A stretch of DNA of 34,699 nt from Bacteroidales bacterium (GTDB lineage Bacteria; Bacteroidota; Bacteroidia; Bacteroidales; P3), in contig JAFSLX010000034.1 in assembly GCA_017448185.1 (NCBI GenBank), positions 1 to 34,699 on the forward strand, in the 5' to 3' direction. The position numbers were made by a program, and so were the translations under genes. The notes under the pieces are model-generated. The model searched no databases and had not been told where the DNA came from. It saw only the letters and a program-made list of their open reading frames with translations. Of this stretch, positions 14,697 through 18,191 are shown piece by piece; position 1 is the first letter of the stretch; the number at the start of each line of letters is the position of its first letter.

Positions 14697-15101
14697 CTAC
14701 ATCGACTTTGAAAGTATAGAGTCAATGGTCTCGATGAGTTCCTTGGTTGGCTCAACAAGTGGCAATACTTCTTCCTCGGTGAGGTCGAAGGTGTCACCGT
14801 AGTCACCAGTCTGTCGCATGGAAAAAAGACGGCCGTATAAAGTTCCCATCTCTTTGCTTATTATACCGGTTTTCACGAAATGAAGTCCTAACATTTGTAT
14901 GATGCCGTGATGAGTCTGTACAGTCAGACCTTGCTGCAGTAAGAGTGCGGACACGGCATAGTATGCTGCATAATACAATCTGTTGGCTGTCATCTCCCAA
15001 TAACCGAGGGAAATAGAGTCAGAGGCTTGTTGGTAAGTCTTGCGTGCTTTTTCCAGGCGGTAGGTGACCAGTGCTCGTCTTTCGTCGTCCGATAAACTCA
15101 T
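14697..15101 (-). CDS. HEPN-domain protein, toxin of a HEPN-MNT pair
   Basis: 134 residues, nearly all helical, of the HEPN/UPF0332 type: SLGYWEMTANRLYYAAYYAVSALLLQQG is the family-like central helix pair (quoted in parts: NRLYYAAYYA, LLLQQGL), followed by THHGIIQML and SMRQTGDYGD. HEPN proteins are usually RNases that cut tRNA or mRNA, held inactive by a nucleotidyltransferase partner. A strict R-x4-6-H motif is not obvious. It overlaps the MNT gene by four bases, so the two are translated together. The pair sits convergently to the ClC gene, 34 bases from its stop. Confidence 0.85.
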   Translation of the reverse strand: MSLSDDERRALVTYRLEKARKTYQQASDSISLGYWEMTANRLYYAAYYAVSALLLQQGLTVQTHHGIIQMLGLHFVKTGIISKEMGTLYGRLFSMRQTGDYGDTFDLTEEEVLPLVEPTKELIETIDSILSKSM

Positions 15102-15415
15102 AGTCTTATTCTGTCTTGCATTACGTTTTTGTAGAACGGTGTGAAACTGCTACGCTCCCAGTCTCGTTTTGTGTAGACTATGGGGCTGATCATGGCGTCA
15201 ATGTCCCAGCCGAGTTCTTGGAAAGGGTAGGCATATTTGCCATAGTCTTCGAGAGTGATATGGCCTTCTTTGTCAATCAGTATCAAAATGTCCCAATCCG
15301 AGTCTTCCCTTGCGGTGCCTCGGGCTTGGGAACCGAACAGCCATGCTTCACCGCCCGAGGGCATGATGCGTTGTGCTGTGGCCGACATCTGTTTTATTTT
15401 CTCGGCTGTATCCAT
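15098..15415 (-). CDS. Minimal nucleotidyltransferase (MNT), antitoxin of the HEPN-MNT pair
   Basis: 105 residues with the nucleotidyltransferase signature GSQARGTAREDSDWDILI (GSxARG then DxD) and a third acidic site in WDIDAM. Members of this group can add AMP to their HEPN partner and silence it. First gene of the two-gene unit, overlapping the HEPN gene by four bases. Chosen start ATG at 15415. The unit lies in a duplicated stretch whose other copy lacks it. Confidence 0.88.
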   Translation of the reverse strand: MDTAEKIKQMSATAQRIMPSGGEAWLFGSQARGTAREDSDWDILILIDKEGHITLEDYGKYAYPFQELGWDIDAMISPIVYTKRDWERSSFTPFYKNVMQDRIRL

Positions 15416-15677: not shown

Positions 15678-17609
15678 TTATTGGTTTTGTACCGTCCAGC
15701 CTAAAGGAATGCCATCTACACCTCTTCCCCAATTCGCCGACGAGGCTTTGATAAAAGTTCCAGTTGGAGACACATTTTGGAGCCAATACTGGGTATTGAC
15801 AGTAGAAATATTGGTAGTTGCAAGACATTTTACGTGATTTAAATTAGTACAGCCGTCAAACATGAGGTAGTAACAACCGCTGGTTAGTGTTCTTGCAGGC
15901 AGGTCTGGAGCGGAAGTCAAACTTGTGCAGTTCTGGAACATATATTGGTAGCAACCATCTGCCAATGTAGTAGCAGGTAATTCTGGTGCAGTTGTCAAGG
16001 AAGAGCAACCATAGAACATTCTCTCGTAACAACTCGGGGTCAATGTAGTAGCGAGCAGTACGGGTGGAGGAGTTGTCAGTGAGGAACAACCATAGAACAT
16101 ACCTGGATAACAATAATTTGCCATTGTAGTAGCAGGCAGTATGGGCGCAGTGGATAAATTGGTACAACCATAGAACATTTCGTAGTAACAATAATCGGCC
16201 AACGTGGTAGCAGGTAGTGCTGGTGCTGTGATTAGAGCAATGCAACCTAAGAACATCCGCTTATAGCAATTATTTTTAAGTGAAGTGGCAGGTAATGCTG
16301 GTGCTGTTGTCAATGCGGTGCAACCATAGAACATATTATAATAACAATCACTTTGTAATGATGTGGCTGGCAGTATAGGTGATCTGGTTATTCCTGTACC
16401 CTTGAACATGGATTCATAACAATGTTCACCCAATGTTGTTGCGGGCAATAAGATATCTTTTGATGGATGGTTCTTAAAGTGATTACCGTTATTAAATAAA
16501 CCTAAAAAAGCATAATTTGTTACACTTGTTAATGTAACATAATTGGTTGGATTGATAAGACTCATGACATTACCATAGAAGAAACAATCTTTGGTACTGG
16601 TGAATCTGCTACCAGTATAATCTGCATTACCATAAATAGTATTGTCCCCACGGAATGAAACTCTATCACCAACATTGGTAAGGGTAATATTTGTATTTGA
16701 AGTGTAATTTTGCCATCCATTACCATCATACTTGTTGTATTGTACCTCACCGGATAATCCTGTCATTAAGGAAAATGAAATCTGCGTACCAGCGGTTATT
16801 GCCTCGAATGTAAGAGGTTCGGCAATGGGATTATTAAAATATGCATTCCTGCTATAGGTTTGGCCGGCTATGAAATTGGCCTGTGTTGAAGATAGTGTCT
16901 CAGTCTCGGTGATATCGCCGCTGTGGTAGACGAGGGTCTGTTCCCCAGTGTAGTGGCCAGCTGGGATGGTGAGGTAGATGGTATTGATGCCGTCGGTGCC
17001 AACTGTAAAGGTGGCTTTGGCCAGTTCGGTGCTGCCGCTCTTGTAGGTCAGCGTGGCTCCAGTGGTACCTTCCGAAATGCCTTCAGGGGCATAGACCAGG
17101 AATTTCATCATTGAGGTGTTGACGCTGAAGGTGCAGCTGATATTGGTGCCGTCACCGTAGAAACAGGTGCCGTAGTAGAGGTTGCGGCTGGCTGCGCTAT
17201 CCATGGAGCCGTCTTGGGTAAGGAAAGCGTCAGAGGTGTAGAGGTAGTCGCCATTGTCTGAAATAGTAACCGCTCCGGGGTTTTTGCTGTCTTTGACAAA
17301 GCATACAAGCGTCGAGTTGGCTGACGGGGTGCCGGTGATGGCGCCGGTAAAGGTGGCCGACGAGGTTCCTGCACCGCTGCTCAGGGTGAGGGTGTTCTTG
17401 TGGTTGTTCCAGCATACAATGAGCTCGTCATCTGCCTCCCAGGTGGCGGTGATGTTGGCACCATCCTCGGTGTAGGCTACTTTTTCACCTCCGGCATCGT
17501 AGGTGGCACTGATGGTGATCGGGGTCTGAGTCAGATTTTCGAGGTCTTTGTTGCACGAGGCCGCCAGCATACCTATTGCCGCTGCGACCAATAAGATACT
17601 TTTCTTCAT
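15678..17609 (-). CDS. BspA-like repeat lipoprotein with fimbrillin-type N-terminal region
   Basis: 643 residues. Signal peptide with lipobox (GMLAASC) makes it an outer-membrane lipoprotein, probably surface exposed. Residues about 25-260 resemble fimbrillin-type domains of Bacteroidales (TWEADDELIVCW, TLSSGAGTSSATFTG). Residues about 388-595 are eight tandem units of 25-27, mostly 26, residues with the core LPATTLxxxCYxxMFYGC, a variant of BspA/LRR_5 repeats with two or more conserved Cys per unit, followed by a degenerate ninth. It ends GIPLGWTV, a frequent end of these proteins. The repeat part is visibly richer in A and T than neighbouring genes. Likely role: adhesion or ligand binding. 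Preceded by a small ORF and a structured leader. Confidence 0.9.
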   Translation of the reverse strand: MKKSILLVAAAIGMLAASCNKDLENLTQTPITISATYDAGGEKVAYTEDGANITATWEADDELIVCWNNHKNTLTLSSGAGTSSATFTGAITGTPSANSTLVCFVKDSKNPGAVTISDNGDYLYTSDAFLTQDGSMDSAASRNLYYGTCFYGDGTNISCTFSVNTSMMKFLVYAPEGISEGTTGATLTYKSGSTELAKATFTVGTDGINTIYLTIPAGHYTGEQTLVYHSGDITETETLSSTQANFIAGQTYSRNAYFNNPIAEPLTFEAITAGTQISFSLMTGLSGEVQYNKYDGNGWQNYTSNTNITLTNVGDRVSFRGDNTIYGNADYTGSRFTSTKDCFFYGNVMSLINPTNYVTLTSVTNYAFLGLFNNGNHFKNHPSKDILLPATTLGEHCYESMFKGTGITRSPILPATSLQSDCYYNMFYGCTALTTAPALPATSLKNNCYKRMFLGCIALITAPALPATTLADYCYYEMFYGCTNLSTAPILPATTMANYCYPGMFYGCSSLTTPPPVLLATTLTPSCYERMFYGCSSLTTAPELPATTLADGCYQYMFQNCTSLTSAPDLPARTLTSGCYYLMFDGCTNLNHVKCLATTNISTVNTQYWLQNVSPTGTFIKASSANWGRGVDGIPLGWTVQNQ

Positions 17610-17648: not shown

Positions 17649-17873
17649 TTATTCCCAAGCGCTGCTACCGTTATCGGTCCAGCCGCCGCCGAAGCGGTTG
17701 CCGCTGCTGCCAGAGGGTGAATTGTCCCATGCATCGAGGCTTTCGTTCGTCCAGGTAGTGCCTAAGCCGAACGCTCCCGATGCACCGAGCGAACTTGTGG
17801 CATAGCCTTGTTCTGTCTTGAAGGTCACAACTGTAAGCTGTGGCGCTTCGTACTGTTTCTTCTTTGTTCTCAT
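17649..17873 (-). CDS. Small Gly/Ser/Trp-rich protein upstream of the BspA-like gene
   Basis: 74 residues. The N-terminal third (RTKKKQYEAPQLTVVTFKTE) is like a group of short Bacteroidales proteins that often precede surface-protein genes; the rest is Gly/Ser/Asn-rich and has two related blocks, WTNESLDAWD and WTDNGSSAWE. No signal peptide, no Cys. The ATG at 17873 is used because the residues before it in the longer frame (to 17906) look like leader. Lies 39 bases before the BspA-like gene and 35 after the T9 run of the leader RNA. Function unknown; a secreted peptide precursor or surface partner is possible. Confidence 0.7.
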   Translation of the reverse strand: MRTKKKQYEAPQLTVVTFKTEQGYATSSLGASGAFGLGTTWTNESLDAWDNSPSGSSGNRFGGGWTDNGSSAWE

Positions 17874-17908: not shown

Positions 17909-18075
17909 AAAAAAAAACCGCGAGGCTTTCTTGTCGGCACTCGAGGTTCTGGACTACCTAACACCCATACAAAGAAGCTCGCGGAAAAGTCCACGAGCGT
18001 CTTGCTTCTTGTTGAGTGTTAGCAAATGGGGAATTGTCCAGATTCCGAGTGCTACGTTGTAAGCAAAAACGCTGG
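17909..18075 (-). ncRNA. Long rod-like structured RNA ending in a hairpin plus T9 (6S-like RNA or attenuating leader)
   Basis: No convincing gene lies in 17874-18191. Nested pairings can be drawn: 17937-17943 with 18046-18052 (7 bp), 17948-17954 with 18036-18042 (7 bp), 17958-17964 with 18016-18022 (7 bp), 17969-17978 with 18004-18012 (9 bp, one bulge), and GCTCG 17977-17981 with 17994-17998. A one-sided bubble (3 against 13 bases) splits the rod. A competing pairing, 17969-17984 with 17918-17934, makes a strong hairpin followed by T9 on the minus strand (17917-17909). A rod with a central bubble and an alternative form is how 6S RNA looks; Bacteroidales 6S-type RNAs are known. It could equally be a termination-controlled leader for the small ORF and BspA-like gene. 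Confidence 0.5.
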
Positions 18076-18153
18076 TCGTTATACTGTTGTTGTTATTCTA
18101 TCTTTCTGTATTTTAATGTTTTATATTGATAATATGATTCCTGTTTACAACTG

Positions 18154-18185
18154 CAAATATATGAATTATATATTATTGTTACAAA
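18154..18185 (-). promoter_or_regulatory. Bacteroidota promoter reading left into the structured RNA
   Basis: On the minus strand TTTG (18185-18182), 20 bases, then TATATTTG (18161-18154) matches the TTTG / TAnnTTTG pair at normal spacing. Transcription would start near 18148, giving about 240 bases before the T9 run. The -33 box lies just after the NlpC stop codon. Confidence 0.7.
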
Positions 18186-18191
18186 AAAAAA

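Follow-up and report, generated by a model that had tools for sequence, protein, structure and literature searches.

The minus strand between positions 18073 and 17909 of the window (the whole 34,699-nt stretch analysed, contig JAFSLX010000034.1 of a Bacteroidales bacterium, assembly GCA_017448185.1) encodes an RNA predicted to fold into a rod that ends in a terminator needing one of the rod arms. The question raised by this locus is whether the RNA stands alone, e.g., as a 6S-like RNA, or is a termination-controlled leader of the genes behind it; the original prediction had named both options and, for the latter, proposed an unrecognised type of switch for BspA-like genes. According to the evidence below, the element is probably a cis-acting transcription attenuator, with four serially complementary segments (S0, A, B, and T) arranged around a central domain. 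Its parts are listed in Table 1.

Table 1. Features of the window element and its surroundings, in the order of transcription
Feature	Positions	Strand	Basis
Promoter, Bacteroidota-type: TTTG (18185-18182), 20 nt, TATATTTG (18161-18154)	18154..18185	-	sequence
5' leader, A-rich, without ATG in the window copy	18074..18153	-	sequence
S0 (AGCGUUUUUGCUU), forms a small hairpin or pairs with arm A (anti-antiterminator)	18061..18073	-	covariation and own-versus-foreign pairing
P1, 5' strand	18046..18052	-	98.9% paired; 6/6 counted pairs changed on both sides
H5, local hairpin GGAAU-CUGGACA-AUUCC	18030..18046	-	93.6% paired; 14 double-change cells; 0/500 shuffles
P2, 5' strand, within the H5 loop	18042-18036	-	99.7% paired; 7/7 pairs covary
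P3, 5' strand	18014..18022	-	98.8% paired; 7/7 counted pairs covary
A: 5' arm of antiterminator P4, pairs with S0 or B	17991..18010	-	covariation and own-versus-foreign pairing
B: 3' arm of P4, pairs with A (rod) or T (terminator)	17970..17984	-	covariation and own-versus-foreign pairing
P3, 3' strand	17958..17966	-	covariation
H3, local hairpin AGGU-AGUCCAGA-ACCU	17944..17959	-	closing pair U-A in 71, C-G in 13, G-C in 2 of 90
P2, 3' strand, within the H3 loop	17954-17948	-	covariation
P1, 3' strand	17937..17943	-	covariation
T: 3' arm of terminator hairpin, pairs with B	17918..17933	-	94.8% paired; 36 double-change cells; 0/500 shuffles
U9 run of intrinsic terminator	17909..17917	-	sequence
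Small ORF, 74 aa, ATG at 17873, 35 nt past the U run	17649..17873	-	protein-cluster matches
BspA-like gene, 643 aa, second gene downstream	15678..17609	-	Pfam LRR_5, 29.7 bits (cut-off 27.7)

The promoter box, the terminator, and the position of the gene can be read directly from the DNA, and the promoter that had been predicted is present, with TATATTTG 80 nt ahead of the element. The expected long rod with a one-sided bubble has an MFE of −55.0 kcal/mol and a z score of −6.46, which none of 200 dinucleotide shuffles equals; the predicted 244-nt transcript, with its putative start and end, reaches −4.43 (again 0/200 shuffles as good). The GC-rich terminator hairpin ends in the nine Ts described originally, and B is indeed the segment common to the rod and the terminator, so only one of the two can form. 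A third competing helix, in which S0 pairs with the 5' arm of the rod, had been missed. As for the genes behind the element, the small ORF has matches in 12 protein clusters (E ≤ 1e-3); P0001, the top one at 95% identity, may be the window's own cluster, and the next has 85%. Just downstream of the BspA-like gene lies an MNT/HEPN pair (nucleotidyltransferase and HEPN, toxin–antitoxin-like; window 14697-15415, minus strand).

Relatives in the same genus were found by blastn, and covariance model R1 was built from 14 of them after alignment; a broader model, R2, was built from 92 matches. R1 matches occur in 109 of 120 genus genomes (E ≤ 1e-3) and in 98 of 393 order genomes (E ≤ 1e-4), the latter across 63 of 206 genera. 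R2 matches are found in 94 of 395 genomes drawn from the class and in 59 of 395 drawn from the phylum, two draws that overlap; the 14 phylum-level genomes outside the class are counted by model score alone. Regarding copy number, scans with strict filters, in which few candidates were scored, yield 426 R2 matches in 40 genus genomes at least 90% complete (mean 10.65, range 0–23, at least one in 39). The window's own genome has 16 R2 matches at E ≤ 1.5e-5 and 15 in the 40-genome scan.

Named contigs carrying the core pattern come nearly all from uncultured Bacteroidales or other Bacteroidetes, several of their titles naming horse, deer, goat, or buffalo. Among 53 named stretches with this pattern, 45 were scored by R1 and 44 match; L098, whose record is marked as a contaminant, does not. 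The single outgroup control, 50 kb of E. coli K-12, gives no match at E up to 10. One plasmid record, pB3-10 of Rhizosphaericola mali B3-10 (Chitinophagales), was retrieved by blastn of element L274 against plasmids and confirmed by R2 (101.6 bits), while the window element and L216 have no blastn match among plasmids and L274 has none among phages. A viral origin was considered and set aside, as neither of two viral contigs that carry the short pattern is matched by the models. In the window's own genome, two elements (C87:53141-53301, plus strand, and C87:57818-57976, minus strand) face each other across ~4.5 kb that hold two convergent gene groups. A gene for a PLD-nuclease/SNF2 helicase (MSTKFFNN...) occurs with the leader in different genera and families (L138, L141, L143, and L216-L220), and the two look as if they travelled together.

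Conservation was assessed in an order-wide alignment (A4, 90 distinct rows), a genus-centred one (A2), and one of 20 rows from 19 loci, 16 of other orders and 3 of the own order (A7); in A2 and A7, one row each (L090 and L262, respectively) is the reverse strand of another row. In A4, which like A2 was fitted to R1, so that its counts lean towards the rod, the 31 rod pairs are standard in 98.2% of cells and 29 of them have changed on both sides, with a covariation score of 0.684 versus 0.181 for shuffled and at most 0.076 for slid alignments. The corresponding values in A7 are 96.1% paired and 0.673 versus 0.174 shuffled. The terminator helix B:T has, in A4, the values given in Table 1 (2.1 double-change cells expected from shuffles) and in A2 97.3% paired cells and 36 double-change cells versus 7.1 shuffled, a number reached by none of 500 shuffles. 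Triple changes are also visible: one element has A-U-A where U-A-U is the commonest. Together with the covariation of both helices, they suggest that the rod and the terminator, although mutually exclusive, are both under selection. The outcome named in advance as speaking against the element, i.e., no covariation in relatives, was thus not observed.

S0 (AGCGUUUUUGCUUUUC in many elements) is complementary to A (GAAAGCAGAACGCU). S0:A is 91.9% paired in A4 (at most 49.2% when slid) with 17 double-change cells versus 4.8 shuffled (0/500), although 34 and 18 of 500 shuffles equal its number of double-change pairs and of pair types, respectively, and a slide by one column still leaves 13 such cells. 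In A2, 90.9% of cells are paired and 9 are double changes (0/500), with 54 and 71 of 500 shuffles equalling the pair number and the pair types. A small hairpin internal to S0, which competes with S0:A, is 91.6% paired in A4 and 76.3% in A7. For H5 (GAAAU..AUUUC), whose values in Table 1 are from A4, the weak spot is that 70 and 25 of 500 shuffles do as well by the same two counts and that a slide by +1 also gives 14 double-change cells. H3 (GGU..ACC) has nearly invariant GG and CC, and only one of its pairs covaries, which 462 of 500 shuffles reach. Taken over the family, covariation thus outlines three mutually exclusive predicted helices and the helices of the central domain.

A cleaner picture was obtained without an alignment, by comparing the binding of each segment to its own partner with the mean for foreign partners. 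Among 59 non-redundant elements, the own partner is stronger in 58 for A:B, 56 for B:T, and 50 for S0:A (p = 4.4e-8), while the control pairings S0:B, S0:T, and A:T have no such preference (24, 27, and 23 of 59; p = 0.89, 0.98, and 0.90, respectively). With longer segments in 43 non-redundant order-level elements, the counts are 43, 42, and 39 for A:B, B:T, and S0:A. With the same segments in other orders, where 17 of 29 elements are non-redundant, they are 16, 17, and 16 (p = 2.3e-5 for S0:A), the same controls having p values of 0.59, 0.81, and 0.26. Since related elements are not independent, all these p values are only a guide. Judged by their complementarity, the segments form a chain, S0-A-B-T.

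The surroundings of the element were studied in 101 copies, namely, the window element, 10 from its own genome (including C39 at E 0.024), 50 from the genus, and 40 from the order (both by R1). These are mostly the best of the matches listed, and the set therefore leans to high scores and near-copies. TAnnTTTG is present within 220 nt upstream of 86 elements (median 80 nt), versus 188 of 1980 windows, probably mostly coding, placed at random in the same loci. In 86/101, an ATG ORF that has 100 aa or more starts no more than 350 nt downstream, versus 614/950 random same-strand positions under the same rule, and a divergent one lies off the 5' end in 18/98. Lowering the limit to 50 aa gives 97/101, with a median distance of 46 nt past the element; this rule is weak, as it is also satisfied at 782/950 random same-strand positions. 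In 19 elements among these 97, the longest open frame of the opposite strand is longer.

The 97 first genes were de-replicated to 70, of which 68 were scanned over their first 450 residues, two very short ORFs (L142 and L165) having been removed by hand. According to Pfam, whose family counts may overlap, the most frequent are ResIII (7), LRR_5 of the BspA type (6), DEAD (6), N6_Mtase (5), MmeI_Mtase (5), and SNF2 (4), whereas no family occurs in more than 2 of 59 control genes located over 4 kb downstream. LRR_5 genes are thus among the targets, as proposed originally, but they are only 6 of 68 first genes, next to restriction families, and describing the switch by BspA-like genes alone is too narrow. 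Models for restriction and defence also appear in the PADLOC and NCBIfam tallies, the latter including LRR surface proteins too. All 10 first genes chosen as defence-like match PADLOC models (L179 weakly, E 2.1e-4), part of the PADLOC matches being to shared helicase and methylase domains. A crude signal-peptide rule is satisfied by 25/68 first genes versus 8/59 controls. The regulon has been only partly read, since 5 of 10 first genes inspected singly have no Pfam match.

Several further observations concern the same neighbourhood. A small HTH-like protein (MQIHIGNLIRDELRRQGHTNEW...) recurs as the first gene (C39 and C1 of the own genome [L289, L291], as well as L147, L174, L005, and L007) and is a candidate regulator or a mere target. 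In several distant members (e.g., L235, L239, L243, and L260) another similar stretch, roughly ACCGC...GGGACTG, was noted by eye ahead of the start codon, up to ~75 nt past the terminator, and in elements of another order ATTCTTAGCA...TCGCA recurs, by eye, past the terminator. At L187, a SAM-I-IV riboswitch (54 bits; 1347-1244, minus strand) lies on the opposite strand ~150 nt upstream of the element.

Regarding how such a leader may work, the central domain would consist of P1 and P3 together with hairpins H5 and H3, between whose loops P2 forms. In the terminator state, S0:A would form a hairpin tipped by H5 and B:T an intrinsic terminator tipped by H3, and transcription would halt on reaching the U run. 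The antiterminator state would instead have both halves zipped into the rod P1-P2-P3-P4, so that A holds B, T is left with no partner, and RNA polymerase continues into the gene. The outcome would depend on the central domain being formed, or not, by the time T emerges, and the gene could be switched off or on by a ligand, protein, or RNA hindering or promoting this domain. Termination in the cell would thus be the mode of action, and the central domain presumably the place where a signal acts.

Folding the halves apart, in the examples inspected, gives S0:A tipped by H5 or a variant on the left and B:T tipped by H3 on the right. The two tips are complementary because they hold the P2 strands. 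As modelled, the leader can therefore be either two hairpins with complementary loops or a single rod, and the H5 and H3 loops would be expected to kiss. Arm duplex energies alone favour the terminator state in 100/101 elements (mean 13.5 kcal/mol), which suggests that the central domain P1-P2-P3 decides. When the rod without T and the U run is compared with the two hairpins, it is lower by a mean of 3.6 kcal/mol and in 76/101 elements; this margin is uncertain and the balance appears finely poised.

MFEs of the growing transcript have S0:A formed before B appears in 100/101 elements and A:B before T in 101/101. Once the polymerase has reached the U run, 100/101 elements have A:B and none has B:T, and unconstrained full-length MFEs contain A:B in 99/101 and B:T in one (L223). 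As these MFEs choose the rod, termination would need a factor or a kinetic trap. The rod, i.e., the ON state, may accordingly be the default, which a signal would override by blocking the central domain; the energies suggest this weakly. A kinetic trap with a default OFF is a conceivable alternative, because MFEs are not kinetics and omit the loop–loop pairing.

As for known RNAs, Rfam at the gathering score reports no family anywhere in the window, and at E up to 10 over the element only weak matches to unrelated families. No family of Rfam 15, including any known riboswitch class, covers the element, whether in the window or at the 45 relative loci scanned, so the original term "unrecognised" holds as far as Rfam 15 goes. 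Flavo-1 has no match at E ≤ 0.5 in 16 class-level loci. No published description of the element was recognised in the literature searched, which covered few subscription papers.

The features typical of attenuators are found here: a terminator hairpin with a U run ahead of a gene, and a conserved competing helix built with one arm of the terminator. In trp-type transcription attenuators, segments pair 1:2, 2:3, and 3:4. The element resembles them in its serial mutually exclusive helices ending in an intrinsic terminator (S0:A, A:B, and B:T), but differs in having no constant leader peptide, many unlinked non-biosynthetic targets, and a large central domain that covaries and contains hairpins with complementary loops. 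An attenuator with a leader peptide overlapping segment 1 was rejected, as the window leader has no ATG and ATGNNNTA[AG] is seen, by eye, in only part of the other leaders. A start codon with a stop one codon later (ATGGCATAA, ATGAAATAG, etc.) recurs, by eye, in the A-rich leaders of part of the elements (e.g., L128, L131, L182, L225, and L246).

Purine riboswitches have loop–loop pairing, a further likeness to the element. For a transcription-terminating purine riboswitch, co-transcriptional strand exchange is described in PMC9756952, and the exchange between a 5' domain and a terminator is similar; however, the element has no known aptamer match, and its halves are both self-complementary and complementary to each other. 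The cis-regulatory families DUF805 (RF03081) and DUF805b (RF02914), reportedly introduced in a 2017 paper, belong to the same phylum, but they lie downstream of the element and not over it, and their models have only 68 and 35 positions. Both occur between terminator and gene at one locus (L202, the same place as L232), ~30-190 nt downstream, the DUF805b match there scoring just below the gathering score, and DUF805b-like text also follows the element at L241 and L242. As a constant partner, a DUF805-type RNA was discarded, such text being present within 260 nt in only 3 of 130 elements. FopS/GibS RNAs share with the element multiple copies, canonical promoters, and the phylum Bacteroidota; according to PMC11697453, though, FopS are stand-alone sRNAs of Bacteroides of ~65-70 nt, whereas the element is a leader of ~165 nt with an exclusive terminator. 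PMC9723704 describes 64 structured 5' regions in Flavobacterium psychrophilum, of the same phylum, some without Rfam hits, and some of these could be this element. The logic of serial attenuator helices is known; what the element would add to it is a two-hairpin/rod exchange in an attenuator family with unusual targets and no matching Rfam 15 entry.

The attenuator can be specified further by its signal, and three of the competing explanations are versions of it in this sense. An orphan ligand-sensing riboswitch, with the central domain as aptamer and one metabolite or second messenger setting the balance between rod and terminator throughout the regulon, is conceivable but doubtful. The two-hairpin central domain with its complementary loops would suit it, as would the nearly invariant letters around P2 (GG/CC of H3, AA and U of H5), the many unlinked targets, and the lack of a constant leader peptide. 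However, most other positions covary freely, including all seven P2 pairs, while metabolite aptamers are usually more conserved than this central domain, and no shared pathway is apparent among the targets.

Equally tentative is a protein-dependent attenuator, in which an RNA-binding protein or a factor of the NusG/NusA type binds the leader and steers its fold. The conserved letters of H5 and H3 would agree with it, and Bacteroides has a global RNA-binding protein, RbpB, according to PMC11697453; NusG paralogues also appear together with Bacteroides in some papers. Against it, the conservation of S0, A, B, and T is explicable by their serial complementarity. An unregulated throttle, whose fixed low read-through limits costly accessory genes with no signal at all, seems rather unlikely. 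It agrees with the accessory and potentially costly look of many first genes and with a ligand pocket that is hardly indicated, but a plain weak terminator would suffice for this purpose, and three exclusive helices with a conserved central domain would not persist.

It is improbable that the element is a stand-alone structured RNA, such as a 6S-like or other sRNA, which lies before genes by chance and ends at the terminator. The rod with a one-sided bubble does resemble 6S and 6S-Flavo RNAs, and the element has its own promoter box and terminator. 6S RNA, however, typically has one or two copies per genome and is not known to be tied to a downstream gene, whereas the element occurs in several to many copies per genome, and an ORF of at least 100 aa follows far more often than a divergent one flanks the 5' end. 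Moreover, the terminator arm covaries with the rod arm, which the end of a plain sRNA does not need. No 6S model matches the window at the gathering score or the element at E up to 10, and RF01685 (6S-Flavo) gives no match in the own genome, a result that says little as this model is silent in all 14 controls too. The 6S-like half of the original prediction is thus rejected, and conservation supports the termination-controlled leader. Finally, a mobile repeat or DNA-level element such as a recombination site, with palindromes acting as DNA, is very improbable despite the multiple copies before variable genes and the one copy on a plasmid, given the fixed promoter–element–gene order in most loci, the G-U pairs retained in the covariation, the P1-P3 sequences that differ between copies, and the less striking fold of the window copy as single-stranded DNA (z −3.5).

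For the transcription attenuator itself, the widest interpretation, offered tentatively, is a phylum-wide orphan RNA sensor of Bacteroidota, in which one signal, acting via the kissing loops of H5 and H3, would set about 10 accessory units per genome, restriction as well as surface or exported ones, as a single stimulon by exchanging strands between a hairpin pair and a rod. If so, a strongly covarying RNA family with matches across Bacteroidota and, in one gut genus, about 10 copies per genome would be absent from Rfam 15, and defence and surface genes would share one control point after transcription start. It would then become testable how costly restriction systems and surface proteins are restrained and which signal opens them. 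Being compact and self-contained (a promoter, two hairpins, and a terminator), the switch could also be tested as a tool to control genes in gut commensals.
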